NCBI GenBank assembly: GCA_003222535.1
Contig: QHWJ01000199.1
Coordinates: 1-43,372 of the forward strand
Direction of reading: 5' to 3'
Source of the DNA: Acidobacteriota bacterium
Lineage (GTDB): Bacteria; Acidobacteriota; Vicinamibacteria; Vicinamibacterales; CAVVIG01
DNA length: 43,372 nt
The notes under the pieces are model-generated. The model was given only the letters and a program-made list of their open reading frames with translations. It had not been told where the DNA came from and did not search any database. Made by a program: the position numbers and the translations under genes. Positions 12,893 to 43,372 of this stretch are shown one piece after another; position 1 is the first letter of the stretch, and each line of letters opens with the position of its first letter.

Positions 12893-12962
12893 AGGTGCGA
12901 GGTGCCGGAGTGCGAGATGCACGCTCGTGGCAGGCCTTTCAGAACCGTCCAGGTTGAGAGCG

Positions 12963-13071
12963 TGTGAAGAAATCACGTACAACGCAGAAACCGCTGAACC
13001 CGCAGAGAAAAATGCTTAGTGTTTTGCTGCGTGTTCTGCGAGTTCTGCGTTCAACGTCGTATTTCTTCACA
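12963..13071. repeat. Word-repeat hairpin (ACGCAGAA / TTCTGCGT) upstream of ku
   Basis: Perfect 11-bp terminal inverted repeats, TGTGAAGAAAT (12963-12973) and ATTTCTTCACA (13061-13071), enclose arms built from ACGCAGAA/CCGCAGAGAA and TGCGTGTTCTGCGAGTTCTGCG. The sequence 12893-12962 before it (GAGGTGCGAGGTGCCGGAGTGCGAG) is also repetitive. The gap between the preceding gene and ku holds no other recognisable feature. Confidence 0.8.
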
Positions 13072-13098
13072 GGCTCTTGAGCCGATAAGAGATACGCC

Positions 13099-28589: not shown

Positions 28590-28685
28590 GGGAATCGGGT
28601 AACCGGGTAATCTGGTAATCGGGTGATTGGATTGCCCGATTGCGCAATCAAATTACCCGATTACTCGATTATCCGATTACCAGAT
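28590..28685. repeat. Word-repeat hairpin (GGTAATC / GATTACC), copy 1
   Basis: GGGTAACCGGGTAATCTGG and TAATCGGGTGATTGG on the left face AATTACCCGATTACTCG and ATTATCCGATTACCAG on the right, around a central GATTGCGCAATC. It is closely related to the elements at 29774-29876 and 31320-31433. It ends 10 nt before the asparaginase pseudogene ATG. Confidence 0.9.
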
Positions 28686-28695
28686 GCGAGGTTTT

Positions 28696-29768
28696 ATGAA
28701 GAAGCTGAACCGCCGTGACTTCGTCCGCACGACGACCGCCGCGGCCGCTGCCGCCGCCGCCGCATCCAAGCCATTGTTCGCTCAGGCACCCACGGTGTTG
28801 ACACCGAAAAGCGTCAAGCCGTGCGTTGTCGCGTCGTCCAACGGCAACCGGTCGAAGGACGCCGACGGCGTCACCTGCGTGGCGAAGGCGTTCAAGATGA
28901 TGACGGGCGGCGCCGACGTGCTCGATGCGCTCGTCGCCGGCGTCGCGATCGTCGAGCTCGATCCAAACCAGACGGGCGTCGGTTGGAGCGGTCTGCCGAA
29001 CGCCGAGGGCGTCGTGCAGCTCGATGCGTCGTGCATGCACGGCCCCAGGAAACGCGCCGGCGCCGTCGCGGGGATCGAGGGCGTCCGCACGCCGGCGAGG
29101 GTCGCCCAGCTGGTCGCCGACGAGACCGATCATCATCTGCTCGTGGGCAAGGGCGCGCAGGACTTCGCCCGCGCGATGGGCTTCAAGATCGAGGAGGGGC
29201 TGATCAACGAGACCGCGCGCAAACAGTGGCTCGAGTGGAAGCGGCGCACCGATCCGTTGCACTACCTGAGCCCGAAGGACCGCGCGCAAGCGTGGTACGA
29301 CGCGGGCCTGCAGATGGTACGCGAGGGGCTCATCGACGGCGAGCATTTCTGGGGGACCACACGACGAGCGGGCTGGCATGGAAGATCCCCGGGCGCGCGG
29401 GCGACTCACCGATTCTCGGCGCCGGACTCTACGTCGACGGCGACATCGGCGCGGCCGGGTCGACGGGCCGCGGAGGGTCGAATCTCTACAATCTGTCGTC
29501 GTTCCTGATCGTCGAAGAGATGCGCCGCGGCGCGCACCCGAAGGACGCCGCGATGACGGCGCTCAAGCGTGTGGTCAGGAACACCATCGAGAAGCGCCTG
29601 CTCAACGGGCGTGGCCAGCCCAACTTCGGGCTGAACTTCTACGTGCTGAACGCGAAGGGCGAGTACGCCGGCGTGGCGATGTACGAATCGACGTATGCCG
29701 TGTGCACGGAGCACGGCGCGCAGACGCTCAAGACCGACGCGCTGTTCGAGGGAAGCGCCACCGACTGA
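28696..29768 (+). pseudogene. N4-(beta-N-acetylglucosaminyl)-L-asparaginase-like gene, broken by deletion/frameshift
   Basis: Ntn-hydrolase family that cleaves GlcNAc-asparagine or beta-aspartyl bonds after autoproteolysis. The N-terminus has a twin-arginine signal (NRRDFVRTTTAAAA). The first frame runs through PNAEGVVQLDASCM and DRAQAWYDAGLQMVREGLIDGEHFWGT, then goes astray. From about 29360 the family match continues one frame over with HTTSGLAWKIPGRAGDSPILGAGLYVDGD to YAVCTEHGAQTL. About 15-20 residues normally lying between the nucleophile segment (GT) and TTSG are missing, so a deletion not divisible by three removed part of the active-site beta-strand. Translation would stop near 29508. 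It sits between two near-identical repeats. Confidence 0.85.
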
Positions 29769-29773
29769 CGACC

Positions 29774-29876
29774 GAATCTGGTAATTGGGTAATCTGGTAA
29801 TCTGGTAATTGGATTGGACGATTGGACGATTGGGCAATCCAATTACTCGATTACTCGATTACCCGATTACCAGATT
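29774..29876. repeat. Word-repeat hairpin (GGTAATC / GATTACC), copy 2
   Basis: AATCTGGTAATTGGG, TAATCTGGTAATCTGGTAATT and GGATTGGACGATTGGACG face CAATTACTCGATTACTCG and ATTACCCGATTACCAGATT. Same family as copies 1 and 3. The gap between the pseudogene and the glycosyltransferase-like gene (29769-29945) otherwise holds only about 70 nt with no recognised signal. Confidence 0.9.
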
Positions 29877-29945
29877 AGTTCGGACGCCGCCAGAGCCGGA
29901 TCGCCGAGTCGTCAGGCAGCGCGGCGTTGTCGCTGCTCGATCGGG

Positions 29946-31292: not shown

Positions 31293-31319
31293 GAACGCGG
31301 GGCCGGACCGGCTGACAGC

Positions 31320-31433
31320 GGAATCTGGTAATTGGGTCATCTGGCAATCCGGTAATTGGATTGGACGATTGAGCACGATTGAGCAATCAAAATTACCCGA
31401 TTACCCGATTACCCGATTACCCGATTACCAGAT
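31320..31433. repeat. Word-repeat hairpin (GGTAATC / GATTACC), copy 3
   Basis: GGAATCTGGTAATTGGGTC, CAATCCGGTAATTGGATTGG and ACGATTGAGCACG face AATTACCCGATTACCCG and ATTACCCGATTACCCGATTACCAG. Copies 1-3 bracket the asparaginase pseudogene and the glycosyltransferase-like gene in turn. The right arm carries four near-perfect CGATTACC units. Confidence 0.9.
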
Positions 31434-31442
31434 GACTATGCG

Positions 31443-32588
31443 TCATCCCATGATCTGTTTCGCGATGGTCTGAAGCTGAAGGTTGGAGGTACCTTCGTAA
31501 ATCTGACCAATCTTCGCGTCGCGGTACAGCTTCTCGACCGGGTAGTCCTTCACGAAGCCGTTCCCGCCGAAGAGGTTCACGGCGAGCGACGTCACTCGCT
31601 CGGCGACCTCCGACGAGAAGATCTTGCACATCGCCGCCTCGGTGAGAAACCCCTGCCGCGCATCCCGCAGGCGCGCAGCGTTGTAGACGAGCAGGCGCGC
31701 CGCTTCGAGCTCCGTCGCGGCGCGGGCGATCTGGTGCCGCACGGCCTGAAACTCGGCGATCGCCTTGCCGAACTGCGTCCGATCGCGCGTGTACTTGATC
31801 GTGTGGTCGAGGGCGCCCTGCGCGAGGCCGATCATCTGTGCGCCGATGCCGATGCGCCCCGTGTTGAGTGTCTCGATGGCGACCTTGTATCCGTTCCCGA
31901 CCTCGCCGATCAGGTTTGCCGCCGGAACGTCGCAGCGATCGAGAATCAGCTCGGTGGTGGAGGACGCGCGGATGCCGAGCTTGTCTTCTTTCTTGCCGAC
32001 GCTGAAGCCCTTGAAGCCGCGCTCCACCGCGAACGCCGTAATTCCTTTGTATCCTCTACTCACGTCTACAGTAGCGAACACCAGAAAGAGCTGAGCCTCG
32101 GCGCCGTTCGTGATCCAGAGCTTGCGGCCATCGAGGATCCACTTGTCGCCCTGCTTCGTCGCCTTGGTGTGCAGGCCGAACGCGTCCGATCCCGATCCGG
32201 CTTCGGAGAGCGCGTAGGCGCCGGCAACTTCCGTGGCGAGACGCGGCAGATAGCGCTGCTTGATGTCGTCGGAGGCCCACTTGAGCAGCAGCGCGTTGAC
32301 CAGCGTGTTCTGGACGTCCACGAAGATCGCCGCGGAGGCATCCACGGCCGACAGCGCTTCCACGGCGAGCACCGTCATGAACAAGCTGCCGCCGGCGCCG
32401 CCGTACGTCTCCGGGATTTCGATCCCCATGAGGCCGAGCTCGAAGAACTTCGGAATGAGGGTGGGATCGAGCTGCGCGGCCTGCTCCATGGCGCACACGC
32501 GCGGGCGGACCTCGCTCTCGGCGAAGTCGCGCACCGCGCCCTGGAACATCCGTTCTTCTTCGGTGAGGACCGTGAGTGGAGCGGTCAT
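31443..32588 (-). CDS. Acyl-CoA dehydrogenase (short/branched-chain type)
   Basis: FAD enzyme introducing the alpha-beta double bond into acyl-CoA in fatty-acid or branched-chain amino-acid breakdown. The 381 residues contain YALSEAGSGSDAFGLHTKA, KLWITNGAEAQLFLVFA, LNTGRIGIGAQMIGLAQGALDHTIKYTRDRTQFGKAI and the intact catalytic motif QIYEGTSNLQL (Glu). It overlaps the SPFH gene stop by 4 bp (ATGA, 32585-32588), so it is the last gene of an NfeD-SPFH-dehydrogenase operon. The pairing is unusual; a link to membrane lipids is possible. Exact chain-length specificity is unknown. Confidence 0.94.
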   Translation of the reverse strand: MTAPLTVLTEEERMFQGAVRDFAESEVRPRVCAMEQAAQLDPTLIPKFFELGLMGIEIPETYGGAGGSLFMTVLAVEALSAVDASAAIFVDVQNTLVNALLLKWASDDIKQRYLPRLATEVAGAYALSEAGSGSDAFGLHTKATKQGDKWILDGRKLWITNGAEAQLFLVFATVDVSRGYKGITAFAVERGFKGFSVGKKEDKLGIRASSTTELILDRCDVPAANLIGEVGNGYKVAIETLNTGRIGIGAQMIGLAQGALDHTIKYTRDRTQFGKAIAEFQAVRHQIARAATELEAARLLVYNAARLRDARQGFLTEAAMCKIFSSEVAERVTSLAVNLFGGNGFVKDYPVEKLYRDAKIGQIYEGTSNLQLQTIAKQIMG

Positions 32589-33586
32589 CCCTTCTTGTCA
32601 GTCGGGCCCAGCGCCAGCATCTCCCGAATTCCGCCGAGCGACCCGAGCACGCCCGTCGCTTCGTACGGCATGTAGACGACTTTGTTGTTTTGACCGGAGA
32701 CCATTTCCTTCAGCGTCTCGATGTAACGGATGGCGATCAGGTACTGGGCGGGGTCGCCGCCGGTGCCCTTGATCGCCGCGGTGATGCGTTCGATGGCCTG
32801 TGCTTCCGCTTCCGCCACCTTCAGGCGAGCCGCAGCTTCCGCTTCGGCGTGCAGGATCTTGGCCTGCTTGTCACCTTCGGCGGTGTTGATCTCCGACTGG
32901 CGGATGCCCTCCGCCGCGAGAATGCGCGACTGCCGCTCGGCGTCGGCGGTGATGATCGTCGCGCGCCGCTCCCGCTCGGCGCGCATCTGCTTTTCCATCG
33001 CGTCGCGAATGTCGCGCGGCGGGTTGATGTCCTTGAGCTCGACGCGACTGACCTTCGAGCCCCACTTGTGCGTCGCTTCGTCCAGAATCGCGCGCAGCTT
33101 GGCATTGATCGTGTCGCGCGAGGACAGCACATGATCGAGCTCCATCTCGCCGATCACGTTGCGCAGCGTGGTCTGCGTCAGCTTCTCGATGGCATCGGGC
33201 AGATTGGCGATCTCATAGGTCGCGCGCACCGGATCGGTGATCTGCGAATAGATCAGCGCATCGATTTCGACGACGACGTTGTCTTTGGTGATCACGTTCT
33301 GGCGCGGGAACACGTACACCGTCTCGCGCAGGTCGATGCGCTCCGTCCGGAAACGCCGCGAGTAGCTGTCGCCCGCAGGCGTAACGATCGTCTGGTGCCA
33401 ATCGACCGAGCGGGGACGGTCGATCAGGGGCAGAACAAAGTTGATTCCGGAGCTCAGCGTCTTGTGGTACTTGCCGAGCCGCTCGACGATCATCGTCTGT
33501 GCCTGCTGGACCACGCGGATGCTCTTCGAGATCAACACGATGACGCCGAACGCGACCGCGGCCACGAGTATTGTGCCAGGACCCAT
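32585..33586 (-). CDS. SPFH/Band-7 membrane protein (QmcA/stomatin-like)
   Basis: Membrane-microdomain scaffolding protein, 333 residues. An N-terminal helix (about residues 5-22) is followed by the Band-7 domain (VVQQAQTMIVERLGKYHKTLSSGINFVLPLIDRP ... ITDPVRATYEIANLPDAIEKLTQTTLRNVIGEMELD), then a long Ala/Glu coiled coil (AERERRATIITADAERQSRILAAEGIRQSEI) and a short hydrophobic C-terminus. SPFH and NfeD genes usually pair, as they do here with a 3-nt gap. Confidence 0.93.
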   Translation of the reverse strand: MGPGTILVAAVAFGVIVLISKSIRVVQQAQTMIVERLGKYHKTLSSGINFVLPLIDRPRSVDWHQTIVTPAGDSYSRRFRTERIDLRETVYVFPRQNVITKDNVVVEIDALIYSQITDPVRATYEIANLPDAIEKLTQTTLRNVIGEMELDHVLSSRDTINAKLRAILDEATHKWGSKVSRVELKDINPPRDIRDAMEKQMRAERERRATIITADAERQSRILAAEGIRQSEINTAEGDKQAKILHAEAEAAARLKVAEAEAQAIERITAAIKGTGGDPAQYLIAIRYIETLKEMVSGQNNKVVYMPYEATGVLGSLGGIREMLALGPTDKKG

Positions 33587-33589
33587 CGC

Positions 33590-34030
33590 TTACATCTCCT
33601 TTTCGACCATGAGGGTCGTTCCATCCACCTGAATGATCGTGACCTGCGTCCCGGGCTCGATGACGGAGGCGTCCGACGACGCGCCGCGCCAATCCTCGCC
33701 GTCCACCTTGACCCGGCCGGCGCCTCCAGGCCCGATGCGCTCCGTCACAATGGCCGTTTTGCCCAGCAGCGCGTCGACACCCGTGCGCAGCTCCGATCCC
33801 GGGCCGAGCTGGAGCAGATGCATGAGCCGCGGACGTAACCCGGCCATGCTCACGATGCTGGAGACGGCGAACGCGATGCCCTGTGTGACGAAGCCGAGCC
33901 CGGGGATGAGCCCGACAATCCCTGCTACCGCGGCCCCAACCGCCAGGCAGGCGAGCCAGAACCCCGCCGTGAACATCTCCCCGACGAAAAGGCCGATCGC
34001 CAAGAGAAACCAAATCAGCCAATCTTTCAT
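33590..34030 (-). CDS. NfeD-like membrane protein
   Basis: Partner of SPFH proteins in membrane-domain organisation. The 146 residues contain two or three hydrophobic helices (residues 4-55, DWLIWFLLAIGLFVGEMF...) and a C-terminal OB-fold domain (about 82-145, LLGKTAIVTERIGPGGAGRVKVDGEDWRGASSD). This is the short NfeD form without a ClpP-like protease domain. The ATG at 34028-34030 is the first gene of the three-gene operon. Confidence 0.92.
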   Translation of the reverse strand: MKDWLIWFLLAIGLFVGEMFTAGFWLACLAVGAAVAGIVGLIPGLGFVTQGIAFAVSSIVSMAGLRPRLMHLLQLGPGSELRTGVDALLGKTAIVTERIGPGGAGRVKVDGEDWRGASSDASVIEPGTQVTIIQVDGTTLMVEKEM

Positions 34031-34099
34031 ATGGTTCTAAGCTGCAACCCTTGTAGGCGTTCCGCTATCCAACTGGTGCCAACCCCTTGTGGAGCCGCT

Positions 34100-35179
34100 A
34101 TGCTCGCTCGTTCGCTGCTGCTCGTTTCGGTCGTTGCATTGTGGTCACCCGCCGTTCCAGCTGCTGCACAAACCTCACGCCAGATCCTGAAAGGCGATTC
34201 CGTCGCCGTCTACAACCTCGTCGGCGAGCTGCGAGTCGAGGCGGGCTCGGGTAGCGACGTCGTCGTCGAAATCCAGCGCGGCGGCGCGGACGCAGCCAAG
34301 CTCGAGGTGCAGTCGGGGCCGCTGCGCGGCCGCGAGACGCTGCGCATCATCTACCCCGACGACGTCATCTCGATGCCCGAGTGGGGGCGCGGCTGGAACA
34401 CGACGCTGCGCGTGCGGGACGATGGGACGTTCGGTGAGGAACATGGACGCCACGACCGCGGTGGCTGGTTCCGCGACGGTCACGAAGTGCGAATCACCGG
34501 GCGAGGCCGCGGCGGACTTCAAGCGTACGCCGATCTGCGTGTCAGCATCCCGAAGGGCAAGAACGTTGCGCTGTACCTCGGCGTGGGCAAAGCGTTCGTC
34601 TCGAACGTGGAGGGCGTGATCCGCGTCTACGTCGCGTCGGCTGATGTGGCCGCCGATCGCACGCGCGGCTCGCTGCGCGTCGAGAGCGGTTCGGGCAATG
34701 TCGACCTGCGCACCGCGTCGGGCGACGTGAGCCTCGCGACCGGCTCCGGTGACATTACGGCCTCCGGCGTCGACGGTTCGAGCCTCAAGCTCGAGACCGG
34801 GTCGGGCAACGTCACGCTGACGGATGGCAAGGCGTCCACCTTGCACGTCGAAACGGGCTCGGGAAACATCGAGGCGACGGCGTCGTCGGGTGACGACCTG
34901 TCGTTCGAGACGGGCAGCGGGGATGTGGATGTGGCGCTCATCGCCACCTTCAGCACCGTGCGTATCGAGACCGGTTCCGGCGACGTCACGCTCAAAGTGC
35001 CGCCCACGCTCGGCGCCGAGGTGGATCTCGATACGGGAAGTGGCGACATCGATCTGGGCGGGCTGACGCTGCAGGTGCGCCGCATCGCGCACGATCATGT
35101 GACGGGAACGCTGGGGGACGGGAAGGGGCGTGTCTCGGTCGAGACGGGATCGGGGAACGTGCACCTACAGAAGCTCTAG
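34100..35179 (+). CDS. Secreted DUF4097-type beta-repeat protein
   Basis: The 359 residues begin with a signal peptide (ending about residue 24, PAVPAAAQ), so the protein is probably periplasmic or surface-exposed. The C-terminal 160 residues are a series of short repeats around V(E)TGSGDV/ETGSGNV (at least eight copies), the pattern of a DUF4097 right-handed beta-helix. No catalytic motif is seen. ATG 34100 has GGAG at 34091-34094. It overlaps the convergent S4 gene by 15 bp. A related but distinct protein with QNGPL repeats lies at 37974. Confidence 0.88.
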   Translation: MLARSLLLVSVVALWSPAVPAAAQTSRQILKGDSVAVYNLVGELRVEAGSGSDVVVEIQRGGADAAKLEVQSGPLRGRETLRIIYPDDVISMPEWGRGWNTTLRVRDDGTFGEEHGRHDRGGWFRDGHEVRITGRGRGGLQAYADLRVSIPKGKNVALYLGVGKAFVSNVEGVIRVYVASADVAADRTRGSLRVESGSGNVDLRTASGDVSLATGSGDITASGVDGSSLKLETGSGNVTLTDGKASTLHVETGSGNIEATASSGDDLSFETGSGDVDVALIATFSTVRIETGSGDVTLKVPPTLGAEVDLDTGSGDIDLGGLTLQVRRIAHDHVTGTLGDGKGRVSVETGSGNVHLQKL

Positions 35180-35536
35180 TTTGCGGCGATCCTTTTTGGT
35201 GGGCCGACCCTTCCCTTCATAGGTAGGAGTCGGCGCGATTCGATGAGCTTCCGCGAGGCGCTCGCGCGCCCCGCGACCCTCTGGCGATTCATCGTACAAC
35301 AATTGCGCGTCCTTCGGTGGGCCGCGGCGCTCTGAGAGTGCGCGCACGGTCACGAGCCATTCGTACGGGCCCACGCGCACGCGAAGGTCATCGCCGACCC
35401 GCACCGGTTTCGCCGGTTTCGCGCGGCTGCCGTTGATCTGCACTTTCCCGCCGGCGACGGCCGCCGTGGCCAGGGCGCGAGTCTTGAAGAAGCGCGCCGC
35501 CCACAGCCATTTGTCCAAACGAACTGACTCTGTCAT
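35165..35536 (-). CDS. hslR: S4-domain RNA-binding protein (Hsp15-like)
   Basis: The 123 residues begin with an S4 RNA-binding domain (VRLDKWLWAARFFKTRALATAAVAGGKVQINGSRAKPAKPVRVGDDLRV), as in Hsp15, which recycles stalled 50S subunits carrying peptidyl-tRNA. The C-terminal half is basic and ends GKGRPTKKDRRKLE. Its gene is the last of a minus-strand group with the M20 hydrolase and a small membrane protein (17-nt gap). Symbol assigned by family resemblance. Confidence 0.88.
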   Translation of the reverse strand: MTESVRLDKWLWAARFFKTRALATAAVAGGKVQINGSRAKPAKPVRVGDDLRVRVGPYEWLVTVRALSERRGPPKDAQLLYDESPEGRGARERLAEAHRIAPTPTYEGKGRPTKKDRRKLELL

Positions 35537-35553
35537 CGGTTGTCGGTCATCAG

Positions 35554-36225
<672 letters not shown>

Positions 36226-36232
36226 GGCACGC

Positions 36233-37579
36233 CTAGCGGGTTCGACTCAGGTAGTCGACGGCCAGATGCGCCATCGCGCGCACGCCCACCGGTAACGCCG
36301 CCTCATCGACGTAAAACCTTGGGGAGTGGTTCGGCGCCACCGTAGCGGGATCGGTCCCCGGTGGCGTGATGCCGAGGAAGAAGAACACGCCCGGAATGCG
36401 TTGCTGATAGCGGGAGAAATCTTCCGCCGTCGTGACCGGCGTCGCGAGCGTGACATGGCTCGCGCCTGCAACTTCACGCAGCGTCGGAAGGATTCTCTCG
36501 GTCAACTCGGGATCGTTGTATGTCACCGCGGTCGCGCTGTCGATGACGACCTGCGCGGTTGCGCCGGCGCTTTGCGCGATCGATTCGGCCGTACGGCGAA
36601 CGCGCTGGTGAATGTCGCTGCGCATCGCGGTGTCGAACGTGCGGATCGTCCCGAGCATCACAACGCTGTCGGGAATGATATTCAAGCGAATGCCGCCATT
36701 GATGGCGCCCACGGTCACGACCGCCGGCGCCGTCGTTAAATCCACCTGACGGCTCGTAATCGTCTGCAGGCCGAGGACGATCTGCGACGCGACGACGACG
36801 GGGTCGATGCCCGCCCAGGGCAGCGCGCCATGCGTCTGACGCCCCCGGACGACGATGCGGAAGCCGTCTGCGGCCGCCATGATCCCTCCCGCCCGGTACC
36901 GGATGTCGCCGGTCGGGTACGGGAACACGTGGAGGCCAAAGATGGCGCTCGGCTTGGGATCGTCGAGCGCGCCCTCTTCGATCATCAGCGCCGCGCCGCC
37001 GCGCTCGCCCGCCGGTGCGCCCTCCTCGGCGGGCTGGAAGATGAACTTGACCGTCCCGGGCAGATCGTTGCGCATTCCCGCCAGTATCTCGGCGACACCC
37101 ATCAGCATCGCGACATGCGAATCATGCCCGCAGGCGTGCATCACGCCGACTTCCTGGCCGTTGTAGGTGGCGCGCACCTTCGACGCGAAGGGGACGTCGA
37201 CTTCTTCGGTCACCGGCAGGGCGTCCATGTCGGCCCGTAACGCGACGACCGGACCAGGCTTGCCGCCGCGCAGTACGCCGATCACGCCCGTATGGGCGAC
37301 CCCGGTACGGACCTCGAGCCCCAGCGAACGCAGGTGCTGCGCCACGAGATCGGCGGTGCGCGTCTCACGATTGGACAGCTCGGGATGCGCGTGGATGTCG
37401 CGGCGCCAGGCCACGACTTTGTCCTGGACCTGAGCGGCGCGACGGTCGACTTCAGCGTCGAGCCTTGACTGAGCTGGAAGGGACGTAACCAGGGAAAGCG
37501 TCGCGACTCCCAACAGTAGGCTATCTGCCATCAGCCGTCTGCAGTCAGTCATCACGCGAGGATTTGATCGCTTACGCAT
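36233..37579 (-). CDS. M20-family amidohydrolase/carboxypeptidase, secreted
   Basis: Metal-dependent amidase cleaving N-acyl amino acids or related amides. The 448 residues include an N-terminal signal (about residues 17-37, MADSLLLGVATLSLVTSLPAQS), then the M20D pattern: RRDIHAHPELSNRETRTA, GVIGVLRGGKPGPVVALRADMDALPVTEE, HACGHDSHVAMLMGVAEIL (metal Cys/His) and FQPAEEGAPAGERGG. The dimerisation domain follows (GRQTHGALPWAGIDP). TTAEDFSRYQQRIPGVFFFLG gives the last ligands. The upstream sixteen codons partly derive from the TCTGCCATCAGCC repeat, so the real start may be M17 (37531). Confidence 0.93.
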   Translation of the reverse strand: MRKRSNPRVMTDCRRLMADSLLLGVATLSLVTSLPAQSRLDAEVDRRAAQVQDKVVAWRRDIHAHPELSNRETRTADLVAQHLRSLGLEVRTGVAHTGVIGVLRGGKPGPVVALRADMDALPVTEEVDVPFASKVRATYNGQEVGVMHACGHDSHVAMLMGVAEILAGMRNDLPGTVKFIFQPAEEGAPAGERGGAALMIEEGALDDPKPSAIFGLHVFPYPTGDIRYRAGGIMAAADGFRIVVRGRQTHGALPWAGIDPVVVASQIVLGLQTITSRQVDLTTAPAVVTVGAINGGIRLNIIPDSVVMLGTIRTFDTAMRSDIHQRVRRTAESIAQSAGATAQVVIDSATAVTYNDPELTERILPTLREVAGASHVTLATPVTTAEDFSRYQQRIPGVFFFLGITPPGTDPATVAPNHSPRFYVDEAALPVGVRAMAHLAVDYLSRTR

Positions 37580-37896
37580 AAGAAAGGCTCTGGTTTGTTG
37601 GGATCGCGAGCAAAGAATACGCTAGAATGCGTCCATTCAGGAAGCTGGTTGTTTGGCAAAAGGCTCACCAATTGACGGTCAAGGTTTCGTTCAAATCGCG
37701 CTCGGCTCCGCGAGCGAACTCGAGTACCACCTGCTTCTTGCAGCGGATCTGGGTCTTGTCACCGGTGAAGTATATGCCCCTCTAGAAACGGCGGTAATCG
37801 ACATCAAGCGAATGCTAACCGGACTCGCGCGACGACTTCTCGCGTCCGCCGAGGCTCGGAGGCCCCGGCTGACAGCAGACGGCTGAGGGCAGACGG
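37521..37896. repeat. Inverted word arrays flanking the four-helix-bundle pseudogene
   Basis: The left array CTGCCATCAGCCGTCTGCAG (within 37521-37554) is the inverted partner of GGCTGACAGCAGACGG and CTGAGGGCAGACGG (37867-37896). Together they bracket the pseudogene at 37627-37886, as the GGAATTT arrays bracket the intact four-helix gene at 14067-14567. The words differ between the two loci. Confidence 0.65.
37627..37886 (+). pseudogene. Four-helix-bundle protein pseudogene (internal deletion)
   Basis: The ATG at 37627 starts MRPFRKLVVWQKAHQLTVK, the usual start of the four-helix-bundle family. Then the frame shifts, and from about 37680 another frame reads FVQIALGSASELEYHLLLAADLGLV...IDIKRMLTGLARRLL, the family's C-terminal half. 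The middle, normally about 40 residues with the LTSQIRRAAVSIPANIAEG-type segment, is missing. The tail (EARRPRLTADG) comes from the repeat. It is a recent or stable remnant rather than a functional gene. Family function is unknown. Confidence 0.85.
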
Positions 37897-37973
37897 CCAG
37901 TTTGTGAATCCCGGCAACCCTTCCACCGTAGAGAGTGTCGAACCCTGTACACCCTCGCTACTTTGGAGCCGTC

Positions 37974-38804
37974 ATGCCGCGTTACCTCGCCGCTGCCGCC
38001 GTCGCCCTGTTGGTTCTTCCAATCAGCGTATTGCGCGCACAGGAGAGCGATGACGAATGGCTCTCGAATTGCCGCGAAGGATGGGGCGACTGGGGCTCGC
38101 GCGCCCGCCACTGCGAGATTCGCGAGACGGGAATGAAGGCGACCGGCCGCCCGCTCACCATCGATCCGGGCATGAACGGCGGTGTCGAAATCATCGGGTG
38201 GAGTAATTCCGACAGCATCGCGATCACAGCGCGGATCCAGGTCAACGCCCGCAACAGCAGCGATGCCGACGCGATCGCCCGCGACATCAAGATCGAAGCC
38301 TCGGGCGGAACAATCCGCGCGACCGGTGGGAGCGGGCCCTTCGGCCGCGGCCAAAACTGGTCCGTCAGTTTCGTCGTGATGGTGCCGCGGCACAGCGACC
38401 TGACGCTTTCGACCCAGAACGGCCCGCTGTCCGTCGAGGACGTGGCGGGCCGGATGGATCTCCAGACTCAGAATGGACCACTCTCGCTGTCGGGCGTCGG
38501 CGGGGACGTGCACGCGAGCGCGCAAAACGGGCCGCTCACGATCGACCTGCAGGGCACGCGCTGGGAAGGTACCGGACTCGACGCGGAGACGCAGAATGGT
38601 CCGGCGGATCTGCGGATTCCCGACAACTACAACGCGAAGATCGAATTCGGCACCGTCAACGGACCCATGGACGTGGGCTTTCCGCTGACCGTGACAATCA
38701 GCGGACGCGTCAAAGACCGTATCAACACCACGTTGGGCAACGGCGGGCCGCCGATTCGCGTGGTCACGACGAACGGGCCTATGACCGTCCGCCGCGGACG
38801 GTAG
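37974..38804 (+). CDS. Secreted DUF4097-like beta-repeat protein (QNGPL repeats)
   Basis: The 276 residues begin with a signal peptide (residues 1-22, MPRYLAAAAVALLVLPISV...RAQ). The C-terminal half carries TQNGPLSVEDV, TQNGPLSLSGV, AQNGPLTIDLQ, TQNGPADLRIP, VNGPMDVGF and TNGPMTVRRG repeats, a beta-helix-like pattern similar to DUF4097 proteins. ATG 37974 has GGAG at 37965-37968. Function is unknown. The stop codon is just before a GGTGAAGGA word-repeat hairpin. Confidence 0.85.
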   Translation: MPRYLAAAAVALLVLPISVLRAQESDDEWLSNCREGWGDWGSRARHCEIRETGMKATGRPLTIDPGMNGGVEIIGWSNSDSIAITARIQVNARNSSDADAIARDIKIEASGGTIRATGGSGPFGRGQNWSVSFVVMVPRHSDLTLSTQNGPLSVEDVAGRMDLQTQNGPLSLSGVGGDVHASAQNGPLTIDLQGTRWEGTGLDAETQNGPADLRIPDNYNAKIEFGTVNGPMDVGFPLTVTISGRVKDRINTTLGNGGPPIRVVTTNGPMTVRRGR

Positions 38805-38866
38805 GTTGGTGAAGGATCGTGAAGGATGGTGAAGGAGAACCTCCACCATCCTTCACCAACCTTCAT
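38805..38866. repeat. Word-repeat hairpin (GGTGAAGGA / TCCTTCACC)
   Basis: GGTGAAGGATCGTGAAGGATGG on the left faces CCACCATCCTTCACCAACC on the right. The 3' end of the deaminase gene (stop at 38863-38865) falls in the right arm. It separates two convergent genes and could terminate both. Confidence 0.85.
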
Positions 38867-39312
38867 AACGGCCTTCCAATGTCCTCATCCCACAACTCGG
38901 GATGATCTCGAATAAACTCCGTCATCATCGTAATGCACCGCGCATCCTGACGCACCTCGAGTGACACGCCGCGGCTCTGCAGCAGCTCCTCCTCGCCTTT
39001 AAACGTATTGTTCTCCCCGATGATCACGCGCCGAATCCCGTAGAGCAGAATCGCGCCGCTGCACATCGCGCACGGCGACAGTGTGGTGTAGAGCGTCGCC
39101 TCGCGATACACCGACGCCGGTTGGCGGCCCGCGTTCTCGAGCGCGTCCATCTCGCCGTGCAGTACGGCGCTTCCTTTCTGAACCCTGCGATTGTGGCCGC
39201 GACCGATGATCTTGCCCTGCGACACGATCACGGATCCGATCGGGATGCCGCCTTCACGGAGGCCCTGCTCCGCTTCCGCAATCGCCGCGACGAGGAATGG
39301 ATCTGTGCTCAT
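38863..39312 (-). CDS. Cytosine deaminase, zinc-dependent (yeast Fcy1-type)
   Basis: Deaminates cytosine, or related bases, to uracil. The 149 residues have the CDA-fold zinc site HGEMDAL (His plus catalytic Glu) and PCAMC, within the run LYTTLSPCAMCSGAILLYGI. GIPIGSVIVSQGKIIGRGHN...QKGSAVLHGE, VIIGENNTFKGEEELLQSRG and the C-terminal FIRDHPELWDEDIG closely follow the yeast enzyme, more than bacterial guanine or tRNA deaminases. The stop overlaps the repeat and its start overlaps the SDR stop. Confidence 0.9.
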   Translation of the reverse strand: MSTDPFLVAAIAEAEQGLREGGIPIGSVIVSQGKIIGRGHNRRVQKGSAVLHGEMDALENAGRQPASVYREATLYTTLSPCAMCSGAILLYGIRRVIIGENNTFKGEEELLQSRGVSLEVRQDARCITMMTEFIRDHPELWDEDIGRPL

Positions 39313-39968
39313 CGCGTACTGGCGCGCATCGCGTCGTACTCGAACACGTTGGGACCGCGCGGCGCTTCACGCGCGATCGCGACCATCGCTCGCGCGACCG
39401 TGGCGGCGTGAATGGGGCGATAGCGCCGCAGCCTGCCGAAGAGGAGCGCCGGCAACACCGGTGCGCCGAGCATCGCGATCCGTTCGCCGAGCCGAAACTC
39501 GGGGCGCTCGCCGAGCAGCAGAGAGGGGCGGAAGATCTGGATGCCCCGGTAGGGAAGCGCTCGGATCGCCGCCTCCGTTTCGCCTTTGACTCGGCTGTAG
39601 AAGACGCGGGACTTGCGATCGGCACCGATGGCGCTGACGAGGAGAAACTGCGTGGCGCCCGCGCGCAGTCCGGCGCGCGCCAATCCTACCACGAACGCAT
39701 GATCAACCAGGCGAAATGCCGGTTGTGACCCTGCCTGCTTGATGGTCGTGCCGAGGCAACAGAAGATGTCGTCGACGTGCGGCAAGTCGCTCGCGGTTTC
39801 GAGCGAGCCAAGGTCCGCGACGCGCTGCTCGAGCTTGGCGTGATGGTGCGAGGTGGTGCGGCGGCCTACGGTTACAACCCGCGACCAGTGCGCATCGGCG
39901 AGGAGCAGCTCGAGCACATGAGAACCAACCAGACCGGTCGCGCCGGCAAGCAATGCGGTTCGTCCCAC
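39309..39968 (-). CDS. NAD(P)-binding atypical short-chain dehydrogenase/reductase
   Basis: The 219 residues start with an extended Rossmann motif (LLAGATGLVGSHVLELLLAD, residues 6-25). HTATIP2/TIP30-like features follow: CCLGTTIKQAGSQPAFRLVDHAFVVGLAR, FLLVSAIGADRKSRVFYSRVKGETEAAI with the YxxxK pair (Tyr and Lys) present. The reaction is unknown. It overlaps the deaminase start by 4 bp and is divergent from ccdA across only 28 bp. The GTG start is at 39966-39968. Confidence 0.85.
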   Translation of the reverse strand: MGRTALLAGATGLVGSHVLELLLADAHWSRVVTVGRRTTSHHHAKLEQRVADLGSLETASDLPHVDDIFCCLGTTIKQAGSQPAFRLVDHAFVVGLARAGLRAGATQFLLVSAIGADRKSRVFYSRVKGETEAAIRALPYRGIQIFRPSLLLGERPEFRLGERIAMLGAPVLPALLFGRLRRYRPIHAATVARAMVAIAREAPRGPNVFEYDAMRASTR

Positions 39969-39983
39969 GCGCAGGAAAGTAGT

Positions 39984-39989
39984 TATTAT
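39984..39989 (+). promoter_or_regulatory. -10 box for a probably leaderless ccdA transcript
   Basis: TATTAT (39984-39989) ends 7 nt before the GTG start at 39997, so transcription would begin at or next to the start codon, leaving no room for a ribosome-binding site. No clear -35 box was identified. Confidence 0.5.
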
Positions 39990-39996
39990 CTCGCCC

Positions 39997-40692
39997 GTGG
40001 GAATCTCCGATGCGTTGCAGAATCAACCGGTCGTTGCCGTGGGATTGCTGTTCGCCGCCGGCCTGGTGACGAGTCTCAATCCGTGCATCTACCCGATGAT
40101 CCCCATCACCGCCGGAACACTTGCGGGCGTCAACGTCGAAGGACGCACGCGCCGGCGCACCATCGGCCTGACGCTCACCTACGTGTGCGGGCTCGCGCTC
40201 TTCTACGCGCTGGTCGGCATGATCGCCGGGATGACCGGATCGTTGTTCGGGACGATCGGCGCGAGCTTCTGGGCCCGGCTCGTCATCGGGAACCTGCTCC
40301 TCGTCTTCGCCCTCGCGATGCTCGAGGTGATTCCCGTGCGGCTGCCCCCGCGCCTTTCCGCCTGGGCGGGCAGCCTGGGCGGCGGCTCCTACCCGGCCGT
40401 ATTTCTCCTGGGTGCGACGTCGGGTCTGGTCGCGGCGCCGTGTGGGGCACCGGCATTCGCCGCGGTGCTCACCTGGGTCGCGACGACGCACAGCGCCGTG
40501 CTCGGGTTTGTCTACCTCTTCGTGTTCTCGCTCGGCATGTCGGCGCTGCTGGTGGTCGTCGGGTTCTTCTCTGGGGCACTCGCGGCGCTGCCCCGAGCCG
40601 GCGCGTGGATGGCGTGGATCAAAAAGGCCGCGGGCGTGGTTCTACTGCTCATGGCTGAATACTATTTCGTGAAGGCGGGGCAGGTATGGTAA
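39997..40692 (+). CDS. ccdA: CcdA/DsbD-type thiol-disulfide transporter
   Basis: Six-helix membrane protein moving reducing equivalents from cytoplasmic thioredoxin to the periplasm, for cytochrome c maturation or other thiol repair. The 231 residues show the two conserved Cys in TSLNPCIYPMIP (about residue 29) and AAPCGAPAFAAVL (about residue 150). The GTG start gives MGISDALQNQPVV; the -10 box placement suggests a leaderless mRNA. It overlaps the following TlpA-like gene by 7 bp. Confidence 0.9.
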   Translation: MGISDALQNQPVVAVGLLFAAGLVTSLNPCIYPMIPITAGTLAGVNVEGRTRRRTIGLTLTYVCGLALFYALVGMIAGMTGSLFGTIGASFWARLVIGNLLLVFALAMLEVIPVRLPPRLSAWAGSLGGGSYPAVFLLGATSGLVAAPCGAPAFAAVLTWVATTHSAVLGFVYLFVFSLGMSALLVVVGFFSGALAALPRAGAWMAWIKKAAGVVLLLMAEYYFVKAGQVW

Positions 40693-41234
40693 AGGCGTAC
40701 GCCGTGCGCAGTGCGCTGGGCGCCGGAATGCTGTTCCTCTCGCCCGCGCTGTTACGAGGACAAGACGTCATCGGGATTCCCGTCGGCGAAACGCCTCCCG
40801 CTGTCACCCTGGAGAGCATGACTGGCGATTCTGTCGCGCTGTCGCGATGGATCGGCAAGAAGCCTGTCATCGTCGAATTCTGGGCGACGTGGTGCCCAAT
40901 CTGCGCCGAGCTGTTGCCGAGAATGGAAGCGGCGCAAAAGAAGTTCGGTGATCGCGCGGAGTTTCTCGTCGTGGCGGTCGCGGTGAATCAGAGCAAGAAC
41001 ACCGTGCGTCGCCATCTCGAGCGGCATCCGATGCCGTTCACGTTCCTGTGGGATGGGAATGGCGCGGCGGTAAGAGCGTTCGACGCTCCCTCTACTTCAT
41101 ACATCGCGGTTCTGGATACCCAGGGGAAAGTCGTCTACACGGGCGTTGGTGCAGACCAAAACGTCGAAGCGGCGATTGAGGCAGCCCTTCGCCGCCCCAT
41201 CGCCGCCCCTTCGCCGCCCCTTCGCCGCCCTTAA
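40686..41234 (+). CDS. TlpA-like thioredoxin-fold protein
   Basis: Secreted or membrane-anchored thiol-disulfide oxidoreductase that likely accepts electrons from the CcdA partner. The 182 residues have an N-terminal hydrophobic signal (about residues 6-24) and the active-site motif WCPIC in IVEFWATWCPICAELLPRM. The cis-Pro loop lies in FDAPSTSYIAVLD. The C-terminal 13 residues are a CGCCCC-word repeat product (RRPIAAPSPPLRRP). It overlaps the convergent peroxiredoxin stop by 4 bp. Confidence 0.92.
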   Translation: MVKAYAVRSALGAGMLFLSPALLRGQDVIGIPVGETPPAVTLESMTGDSVALSRWIGKKPVIVEFWATWCPICAELLPRMEAAQKKFGDRAEFLVVAVAVNQSKNTVRRHLERHPMPFTFLWDGNGAAVRAFDAPSTSYIAVLDTQGKVVYTGVGADQNVEAAIEAALRRPIAAPSPPLRRP

Positions 41235-41800
41235 CGCGCCGTTGTATCCGCAGGCACCAGTTTGTTAATGGCAGCTCCGAGTTCAGTGTAGCTCGTCGGA
41301 TCGATTTCCCGGAACGGCGTCGCCCGATAGGCGATTCTCCCGTCCGGTCCTACCAGGAACAGATTGCGGTTGTCGAGCTTGTACTGGGCATTGTACGCCC
41401 CGTATGTCTTCCCGACCGCTGAGCCGGTATCACTCCCAAAGAGGACCGGGTAGTCCGCGTCCCGCGCCCAAGAGGCGAGTGCCGTGTCGACATCGGCGCT
41501 GATGGCGATGAGGACCACGTTGCGGCCGTTTCTGAAGACCTGTGCGTACTGATCACGGTACGCATTCATTTGGATCGTTCAGCCACGCGTTCGCGCTTTG
41601 AAGAAGAACGCGAGGACGACCGTCTTCCCCTTGTAGTTGCTGAGCCGTACCGGGTTTTTGAGCGTCCCGTAGCGCGTTGCGCCGGGGATCGCGAAGTCGG
41701 GCGCGACGACGCCGACCTCGAGCGCCGGCGGACCCGGTGGCGGTGCGGGAGGCGCCGCTGGCTGCTGCATCAACGCGGCAAGAACGAGTGTCATGACCAC
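41231..41800 (-). CDS. Selenocysteine-containing peroxiredoxin (predicted), AhpC/TSA-Bcp type
   Basis: Thiol/selenol peroxidase. The N-terminal part reads GVVAPDFAIPGATRYGTLKN and VVLAFFFKARTRG, and after an in-frame TGA (41579-41581) the same frame continues TIQMNAYRDQYAQVFRNGR, VVLIAISADVDTALASWARD, DYPVLFGSDTGSAVGKTYGA and LFLVGPDGRIAYRA. The TGA replaces exactly the peroxidatic Cys in the usual TPGCT motif (here TRG-U-T). No indel is present. A SECIS-like hairpin follows. The GTG at 41798-41800 has AAGGA 7 nt upstream; TTG 41825-41827 is alternative. The N-terminus is hydrophobic then Pro-rich, suggesting export. The alternative reading is a nonsense mutation at the catalytic codon. Confidence 0.78.
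41543..41581 (-). promoter_or_regulatory. UGA codon and SECIS-like hairpin
   Basis: Read on the minus strand: TGA (41581-41579), 14 nt, then stem TGCGTAC (41564-41558), loop CGTGATCA (41557-41550) and stem GTACGCA (41549-41543), seven perfect pairs. The loop's second base is G followed by T, and that G is 22 nt after the TGA, within the range expected for bacterial SECIS elements. Sec machinery is not in the window. Confidence 0.68.
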
Positions 41801-41864
41801 GACGATGTCCTTGTTGTGTGCGGGCAATAATCTACTTGTCCGGCGGGTTCCCCGCCTCCTCCCG

Positions 41865-42404
41865 CTATGCCACGCCTGCGACGTGGTACCGCGTTCTCAA
41901 GATCTCGACATGGTGCCGCTCATGTCCCGGTAGCATGAACGCGAGCGCGCGCACGCTCACCGGCTTGCCGCTCGCCGTGCCGCGGCGGCGCCACGCATCG
42001 GTGTCGAACGTGCGGAGTAGGGCGAGCGTCGCCGCCCGGGCGGTGCGCAGCTCGCCGACGAGATCGGCGAGCGAGCGGTCATCGAATTTGGCGACGGGGA
42101 CGTAGGCGTTTTCGTCGAATCCCGGCAGCGGGGTCGTGTCGCCGCGCGCGATGCGCAGCGCGCGGTAGGCCATGATGCGCTCGATGTCGGCGAGATGCCC
42201 CACGACTTCCTTGATGCTCCACTTGCCGCGGTCGTAGCGATACATCGCGTCCGTCTCGGAGAGGCCGCGCAGCAGCGTGGCCGTGTCCTCGATTTGCGCC
42301 GCGCACGCGGTGACAGGATCGAGCTCGGGGACCCGCTTGATGTAACCGACGTAATGCGACGGAATCTCGTCGGGCTCGGGACGTCCCACGATGCGGGTGC
42401 TCAC
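41865..42404 (-). CDS. DinB-like metal-binding four-helix protein
   Basis: The 179 residues match the DinB/YfiT-type fold often used in thiol-dependent transferases: KWSIKEVVGHLADIERIMAYRALRIARGD in the second helix region, and the C-terminal LPGHERHHVEILRTRYH, giving the three likely metal-binding His. The GTG start is at 42402-42404. The stop codon region is 3' of the peroxiredoxin start. It overlaps the next gene's stop by 4 bp. Exact thiol and substrate are unknown. Confidence 0.85.
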   Translation of the reverse strand: MSTRIVGRPEPDEIPSHYVGYIKRVPELDPVTACAAQIEDTATLLRGLSETDAMYRYDRGKWSIKEVVGHLADIERIMAYRALRIARGDTTPLPGFDENAYVPVAKFDDRSLADLVGELRTARAATLALLRTFDTDAWRRRGTASGKPVSVRALAFMLPGHERHHVEILRTRYHVAGVA

Positions 42405-42898
42405 GGCGATTTCCCGTCGAGCTCCGTGAGCGCCATCGCTTTCACGGTTTTGCCTTCACCGGTCATAATGCGGCGGTGGTAATCCACCTGGCCAAGATGG
42501 TAGGCGAGATGCGTCGCGAAGTGCGCGAGAAAGGCGCCCGTAGAGGAGCTGACGCCGCCGACCTTTTCGGGAAACGGTTTGCGGAGGTCCTCTTCGCTGA
42601 TCTTGCTCATGCCCACTTCCACCGCCGCAATCGCGTTGTCGATCTCGTGCAGCAGCTCGGCGCGCGGAATGTCGCGGCTGGCGAACTCTGCGTCGCGGTT
42701 CCGCACGTAGCCGTTCTTGCCGAGCACGTTGCCGAGGAAGTACTGGAGATTGCCGGCGAGATGGAGCGCGAGATTCCCGCCCGGGTTCGCGATCCCCGCG
42801 GGGATCTCCCACAGGTCTTCGTCGCTGGGATACGATTCGATCTCGCGCCGCAGCGCCTTCAGCTCGCGTGTGATGACGTTGGTGATCCAGTCTTTCAT
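42401..42898 (-). CDS. DinB/DUF1572-like protein
   Basis: The 165 residues begin MKDWITNVITRELKALRREI (ATG 42896-42898). The middle has NLALHLAGNLQYFLGNVL, and the end has AFLAHFATHLAYHLGQVDYHRRIM, giving the His pattern of DinB-like proteins. The longer frame upstream is antisense of the methyltransferase and was not used. With its neighbour it forms a small operon of overlapping genes transcribed after the methyltransferase. Confidence 0.85.
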   Translation of the reverse strand: MKDWITNVITRELKALRREIESYPSDEDLWEIPAGIANPGGNLALHLAGNLQYFLGNVLGKNGYVRNRDAEFASRDIPRAELLHEIDNAIAAVEVGMSKISEEDLRKPFPEKVGGVSSSTGAFLAHFATHLAYHLGQVDYHRRIMTGEGKTVKAMALTELDGKSP

Positions 42899-43372
42899 TC
42901 GATCCTCCCCACCCGCATGGCCACCGGCCAGCGCGCCAACCGTGATTGTCGCGGATCGCCCCAGAGCGGTCCGAGCTCGCTGACGAGACGCGCCACCGGA
43001 TCCTCGCCGTGGCGCTTGATGAACGCGCGCGTGGCCGACCACGTGCGCACGTACCCGGCGACGTCGTCGAGCGTCACGGGCTGCTCGATCACGAAGTCGG
43101 GTGCGGTGAATTCAGCGAACGGAAACTCGATGGTCTGGTAACGCTCCTCCGTGATCCGCCGTTCCGGCGGCCAATAAGGACCCACGGTGTTGCTGTAGAA
43201 GCGACGCACGATCTTGTCGATCGGCGGTGCGATCTCGAGCATCACATACGTCCACACCGCGATCACGCCGTTTGGCCGAAGGACACGCCGAACCTCGGTC
43301 CAAAATCGGGCGCGGTCGAACCAGTGCAGCGCCTGCGCCACCGTGACGAGATCCACCGATCGGTCGCCCAGG
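42895..43372 (-). CDS. SAM-dependent methyltransferase, class I (partial, N-terminus beyond window)
   Basis: The visible C-terminal about 158 residues include LGDRSVDLVTVAQALHWFDRARFWTEVRRVLRPNGVIAVWTY, the post-motif II/III region of a class I methyltransferase (type 11 family), followed by a C-terminal helical part ending RWPVAMRVGRIE. The glycine-rich SAM motif would lie beyond the right edge. Its stop overlaps the next gene's ATG (ATGA). Substrate is unknown. Confidence 0.88.
   Translation of the reverse strand, partial: LGDRSVDLVTVAQALHWFDRARFWTEVRRVLRPNGVIAVWTYVMLEIAPPIDKIVRRFYSNTVGPYWPPERRITEERYQTIEFPFAEFTAPDFVIEQPVTLDDVAGYVRTWSATRAFIKRHGEDPVARLVSELGPLWGDPRQSRLARWPVAMRVGRIE

Follow-up and report, generated by a model that had tools for sequence, protein, structure and literature searches.

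The gene with an apparent stop codon in the DNA analysed here, a stretch of 43,372 nucleotides that we call the window, is most likely intact and codes for an enzyme that destroys peroxides by means of an active-site selenium, to judge from comparison with its relatives. By the family that it matches, the product would be a selenocysteine (Sec) peroxiredoxin, known as a kind from other bacteria and here seen widely across the Gemmatimonadota. We hold it very probable that this is a Gemmatimonadota protein whose UGA is decoded by SelB and tRNA-Sec by way of a downstream hairpin, that is probably exported, and whose selenenic acid is resolved by an outside thiol. The Sec codon, the SECIS hairpin, the decoding machinery (SelB and tRNA-Sec), the fold family, the absence of other Cys, and the gene neighbourhood are all supported by comparison of sequences; translation, peroxidase activity, location, and electron donor are parts of the picture that we infer.

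Standard annotation easily truncates or overlooks such genes. The new aspects are the lack of any other Cys, an N-terminus resembling an export signal, the presence of CcdA and TlpA nearby, and the replacement of a Pro at position -7 in most Sec forms. The accessible portions of the open-licence literature, selenoproteome papers included, yielded no report of a Gemmatimonadota Sec peroxiredoxin. Should the Sec form prove as common as our sample suggests, selenium-dependent peroxide defence would be common in a major soil phylum, and the alternation of Sec and Cys, with its coupled change at -7 in one clade without other Cys, would offer a natural experiment on the use of Sec. The coordinates of the features discussed are collected in Table 1.

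Table 1. Features of the window, with coordinates counted from its first letter
Feature	Coordinates	Strand	Remarks
Selenocysteine peroxiredoxin gene	41231..41800	-	Predicted GTG start 41800-41798, TAA 41233-41231; 189 aa; single Sec, no Cys
In-frame TGA, Sec at the peroxidatic position (TRGU)	41579..41581	-	TGA in 14/15 named relatives, TGC in 1
Bacterial SECIS hairpin	41543..41564	-	Stem of 7 bp; loop of 8 nt (C-G-U-G-A-U-C-A) 21 nt past the TGA; fits the bSECIS model
TlpA/ResA-like thioredoxin-fold protein, WCPIC	40686..41234	+	Proposed reductant; convergent neighbour; TlpA match in 12/15 named loci
CcdA/DsbD-type transmembrane electron carrier	39997..40692	+	Proposed electron source of TlpA; match in 10/15 named loci
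Approximate junction, G000-type (left) / Gemmatimonadota AG34-type (right)	31428..31458		Probably chimeric contig; from repeats and alignments

The reading frame and its in-frame TGA

The frame at 41231-41827 on the reverse strand contains one internal TGA (41581-41579), is otherwise open, and ends in TAA. A sequence-only reading of the window had described it as a frame of 199 codons, open save for that one TGA; the openness stands, though the CDS is likely shorter, with 189 aa counted from the GTG at 41800. The context of the codon is ...FFFKARTRG-TGA-TIQMNAYRDQYAQVF..., and when the TGA is read as Sec the protein matches AhpC-TSA (PF00578) at 1.5e-23 with 83.5 bits, against a gathering cut-off of 26, as well as the Redoxin profile. 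Aligned homologues carry either TGA or Cys at this column, in agreement with the earlier claim that the TGA falls exactly on the codon of the peroxidatic Cys. The motif TPGCT, given there as usual, turns out not to be that of the Gemmatimonadota clade, where the 13 Cys forms carry P[RK][AS]RTxGCT.

Fifteen relatives, each of them from Gemmatimonadota, came out of the named genome scan; at the site 14 have TGA and one (L048) has TGC. When 395 Gemmatimonadota genomes were sampled, 312 had a match at 1e-20 or better; among the best 150 matches, 139 carry the in-frame TGA and 11 do not, and these 11 show a Cys codon there, TGC or TGT. TGA and TGC/TGT thus alternate among homologues, the pattern that the earlier reading had proposed looking for. 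An alignment of 112 rows, in which duplicates and rows from other lineages are counted too, has TGA at the site in 87, TGC in 23, and TGT in 2; the frame of a further locus, L016, reads Cys at the site and is unaligned across it in this alignment. One match (L157, in G435) has two in-frame TGA codons.

Two other readings of the TGA were considered. The first, that an otherwise ordinary Cys peroxiredoxin has suffered a nonsense mutation or a sequencing error, draws on the existence of Cys homologues and on TGA being one base away from TGC and TGT, but the same TGA, flanked by open frame on either side, recurs in 14 of 15 named relatives, whose record names point to several projects, as well as in 139 of the 150 best matches, so that we give this explanation almost no credence. 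The second, that TGA is read as some other amino acid (e.g., Trp) through a changed code or general readthrough, would agree with a frame that remains open past the TGA. We consider it just as extremely improbable: TGA ends 6 of the 12 neighbouring reading frames checked (whose gene labels, except CcdA, TlpA, and the peroxiredoxin, are presumptive) and therefore is not a reassigned sense codon, the column shows TGA, TGC, and TGT only, and tRNA-Sec co-occurs with it.

In a tree of 98 rows, the Gemmatimonadota rows make up one side (support 100/99), and the Cys forms are interspersed with the Sec forms at several points. Ten changes between Sec and Cys are counted on this tree, at least 7 of them forced by starred branches, in a topology with unsettled bootstrap, long branches, and Sec coded as Cys. 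Tandem paralogues also occur: L140, L143, L146, and L148 each pair a Cys form with a Sec form, and L142 has two Cys forms.

The hairpin downstream of the TGA

The hairpin noticed in the sequence-only reading, with 7 bp, a start 14 nt after the TGA, and a GU in its loop, is present as described. Its 5' arm occupies 41564-41558 (TGCGTAC), the first base lying 14 nt past the TGA, and its 3' arm 41549-41543 (GTACGCA); the loop between them (41557-41550) is CGTGATCA, also written CGUGAUCA, and contains the GU. The predicted folding energy of a 36-nt stretch containing the hairpin is -9.2 kcal/mol. In a published bSECIS model, the loop should have 3-9 nt with a G within its first two positions, the stem 4-16 bp, and the structure an MFE of -7.5 or lower at a distance of 16-37 nt from the UGA (PMC13188914). 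The window falls within all these limits (loop of 8 nt, stem of 7 bp, G second and then U, 21 nt, -8.6), as the bacterial SECIS check proposed earlier would have it.

The hairpin of one sequence is weak evidence by itself. Shuffled sequences fold as well as the 36-nt stretch in 5 of 200 cases, and as well as two longer stretches in 11 and 31 of 200. The bSECIS model accepts 1185 of 5000 synonymous shuffles, 506 of the 5000 being at least equally stable, and it accepts 212 of 1383 background codon positions, which were drawn from six genes nearby and from the 3' portion of the peroxiredoxin gene. The earlier argument that a TGA at this one codon followed by such a hairpin is improbable by chance is overstated as regards the lone hairpin, which is unremarkable against this background; it is because of conservation, with TGA at that codon in 14 of 15 named relatives, that the position of the TGA and the hairpin go beyond chance.

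The comparison of codons and hairpins was confined to loci numbered L036 and above, whose distinct 60-nt stretches gave 61 Sec and 13 Cys sequences. Left out were L005 (the window's copy, identical to L036), other-lineage loci, and duplicate stretches, since L107 onward repeat genes of several L036-L050 genomes. The ratio of 61 to 13 should not be taken as a frequency, because the 40 hand-picked regions include all 11 TGA-less rows.

The perfect-hairpin version of the bSECIS model fits 55 of the 61 Sec sequences (6 fail) versus 1 of the 13 Cys sequences. Codons +6 to +11, which encode AYRDQY, show no synonymous change among the 61 distinct Sec sequences except at Asp (GAT 58, GAC 3): the counts are GCG 60, TAC 61, CGT 61, CAG 60, and TAC 61 for the other five, and the two sequences missing from the counts of 60 encode another residue. 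In the 13 Cys forms, codons in the same stretch are mixed (Arg CGC 10, CGT 2, CGG 1; Tyr TAC 8, TAT 5), and the two outer stem pairs are each broken in 10 of 13. The outermost pair, which joins two wobble bases, is UA in 21, GC in 17, CG in 14, AU in 1, and unpaired in 5 of 58 Sec sequences, and its covariation score is equalled by none of 500 shuffles. Two of five covariation measures for the Sec sequences do not exceed shuffles; the covariation is confined to this one stem pair, and the six inner pairs are nearly invariant, which is not itself covariation. The hairpin is conserved as RNA in the Sec forms and decays in the Cys forms. A hairpin kept and covarying in the TGA forms, the Sec/Cys alternation, and the occurrence of tRNA-Sec and SelB in Gemmatimonadota together support the selenoprotein interpretation that was first made from the letters of the window, and none of the refuting outcomes named there that were checked turned up.

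Decoding machinery and the origin of the contig

The SelB wing domain was found in 10 of the 15 named genomes, and tRNA-Sec, as confirmed by ARAGORN, in 11. Each of the 14 named genomes with TGA has SelB or tRNA-Sec, 7 of them both, and the genome with TGC has neither over the cut-off. Four genomes gave no SelB: G195, G196, G206, and G193, which is the nearest one and does have tRNA-Sec.

Across the 395 Gemmatimonadota genomes, tRNA-Sec occurs in 277, namely in 129 of 138 TGA genomes versus 148 of 257 others (odds ratio 10.6, p 1.8e-15, kinship ignored), where the TGA genomes were drawn from the best 150 matches and the other 257 may hold further TGA forms. Eight genomes were counted as Cys-only, 4 of them with tRNA-Sec; two of these 4 (G294 and G502) have a TGA copy as well as the Cys copy next to it, so that the Cys-only genomes with tRNA-Sec become 2 of 6, and moving both to the TGA group changes the counts above to 131/140 versus 146/255. 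Nine of the 138 TGA genomes gave no tRNA-Sec match over the cut-off, among them G207 (L050, L158), a chromosome-titled record of 4.09 Mb with a TGA form and SelB. The incompleteness of metagenome-assembled genomes may explain most of the missing matches, though perhaps not that of G207.

Matches to selA, the SelB domain, selD, and tRNA-Sec occur in G000, the assembly to which the window belongs, and a search for these genes in the same genome was the first check suggested by the sequence-only reading. The genes are there; we do not count them as support, since the segment carrying the peroxiredoxin gene appears to belong to another lineage and the sel genes of G000 are thus no testimony for it, whereas those of Gemmatimonadota are. 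The G000 selD match (L051) has one in-frame TGA and is probably a selenoprotein gene itself, as SelD commonly is.

Repeats and alignments make a chimeric contig the most likely case. From position 1 to about 31430 it contains dispersed repeats that recur many times in the other contigs of G000, and from about 31459 to 43372 it resembles the Gemmatimonadota genome AG34, the nearest relative, with 98.9% identity over 38628-43372 of the window. Contig C87 of AG34 matches 32666-37866 and 38066-38800 at 99-100% (rounded), with 98.8% over the first 835 bases. More distant matches are found in AG14, where one contig aligns at 83% (31459-35509) and 79% (37906-38788), and in AG16, where two contigs align at 85-86%; to the left of 31459 both continue into a repeat protein gene, presumably of YVTN type, that is unalignable with the window. 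The protein has no close relative except in G000 among 193 genomes of the class of G000 (the next best match being 1.5e-19), and the G000 SelB shares only about 30-33% identity with nine SelBs of Gemmatimonadota, with one row of that comparison (L062) uninformative through a wrong strand.

One might instead suppose a real and recent transfer of the Gemmatimonadota segment into the host of G000, whose own Sec machinery would then decode the gene, and the lack of Ns in the contig and the presence of selA, the SelB domain, selD, and tRNA-Sec in G000 would suit such an event. Most of 32666-43372, however, matches AG34 at about 99% identity and in unchanged order, intergenic DNA too, and the break adjoins a dispersed G000-type repeat; such repeats are a usual place of false assembly joins. 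We regard transfer as unlikely, and with a chimeric contig as the preferred reading we recommend that other findings in the window be assigned by their side of the junction at 31428-31458.

Several smaller observations concern the window as a whole. Dispersed, partly palindromic repeat families with many G000 copies lie at 12957-13077, 16924-17045, 28590-28688, 29760-29877, and 31307-31427; a repeat at 366-448, also in the left part, has short copies in Gemmatimonadota genomes too. ARAGORN found no tRNA in the window, a plasmid search gave 13 distant matches of which none covers 80% of the query, and a PHROGs search gave one unnamed family. An Rfam match to ilvB-OMG within 40000-43372 reached 20.1 bits, below its gathering threshold of 95.9, and was taken as chance.

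Protein, neighbours, and related families

From 50 residues before the site onward, no Cys occurs outside the site in any of 64 Sec and 13 Cys forms, in a count where the second copies of L140, L142, and L148 reach the locus edge and may lack their ends. The TxxU motif is present in 60 of 61 Sec forms. The Pro of PxxxTxxC/U at position -7 is absent from 57 of the 61, the residues there being Phe 33, Tyr 21, Pro 4, Ile 2, and Val 1, versus Pro in 13 of 13 Cys forms (Fisher 2.3e-11, kinship ignored). A hydrophobic N-terminal stretch is seen in 76 of 77 members by a crude hydropathy rule rather than a signal-peptide predictor, and the protein probably carries an export signal, the N-terminus of the window's copy being less typical than most. 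An AlphaFold model with a mean pLDDT of 80.9 matches PDB peroxiredoxins with TM-scores of 0.61-0.77 among the 50 matches listed.

The gene faces a CcdA/TlpA pair, as had been claimed, with both partners on the forward strand. It is convergent with the TlpA gene, whose end it overlaps by 4 bases, and for this reason stands outside the CcdA-TlpA operon. No CcdA or TlpA match was found in L041, L045, or L049, the contig of L041 ending right after the gene; the L039 and L043 loci are cut, and L048 has CcdA/TlpA on the opposite side.

In the mechanism that we propose, SelB and tRNA-Sec, directed by the hairpin downstream, would decode UGA as Sec, and the selenolate would reduce H2O2 or organic peroxides; attack of a selenolate on peroxide is known peroxiredoxin chemistry. 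The resulting selenenic acid would be resolved by an outside thiol, which is needed because the protein is without any Cys, and its neighbourhood makes the TlpA-like protein, kept reduced by CcdA, the best candidate donor. The conserved neighbourhood and the absence of the motif Pro from most Sec forms could also fit a selenoprotein that is not chiefly a peroxidase and that acts as a thiol-disulfide or signalling partner of CcdA-TlpA. This seems improbable, as TxxU is so well kept (60/61), no second Cys is available for disulfide exchange, and PF00578 and peroxiredoxin structures are the best matches. A broader form of the peroxidase reading is evenly poised in our judgement: a phylum-wide, exported, one-chalcogen selenoperoxidase fed by CcdA-TlpA, in which chalcogen and shielding residue would be paired, Phe/Tyr at -7 with Sec and Pro with Cys.

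Sec peroxiredoxins with TxxU are an established bacterial family (PMC13188914, PMC9312934), and three other papers count 12 (PMC1794560), 43 (PMC1088965), and 253 (PMC2398784) such genes. The window protein is like the PrxU type of Eubacterium acidaminophilum in its peroxiredoxin domain, TxxU, UGA with a bSECIS hairpin, and Cys homologues. It differs in scoring 54.2 bits against the NCBIfam NF040737 cut-off of 270, and the Gemmatimonadota form differs in having no other Cys, a likely N-terminal export signal, and, in 57 of 61 Sec members, mostly Phe or Tyr in place of the Pro of PxxxTxxU. No NCBIfam model reaches its cut-off for the window protein; the second-best match (45.1 bits, cut-off 140) is to PrxQ/BCP (PRK09437, NF006960), which shares the fold family, whereas the window protein has M at +4 and no Cys close to the peroxidatic site that could act as the resolving one.

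The Sec peroxiredoxins of the G000 lineage (GUTAEC; L006, L007, L008, L010, L011, L013, L017, L033) likewise alternate between TGA and Cys and have hairpins of their own. They show, however, 32-41% identity, lie on a separate side of the tree (100/99), and have Cys at +4. With L034 included, 8 of 9 Sec forms keep the Pro, and the swap at -7 is therefore a habit of the Gemmatimonadota clade and not of Sec proteins generally. The hairpins of these nine loci, from Sec/Cys peroxiredoxins of the G000 class, are different ones, and 7 of the 9 fit the simple model.
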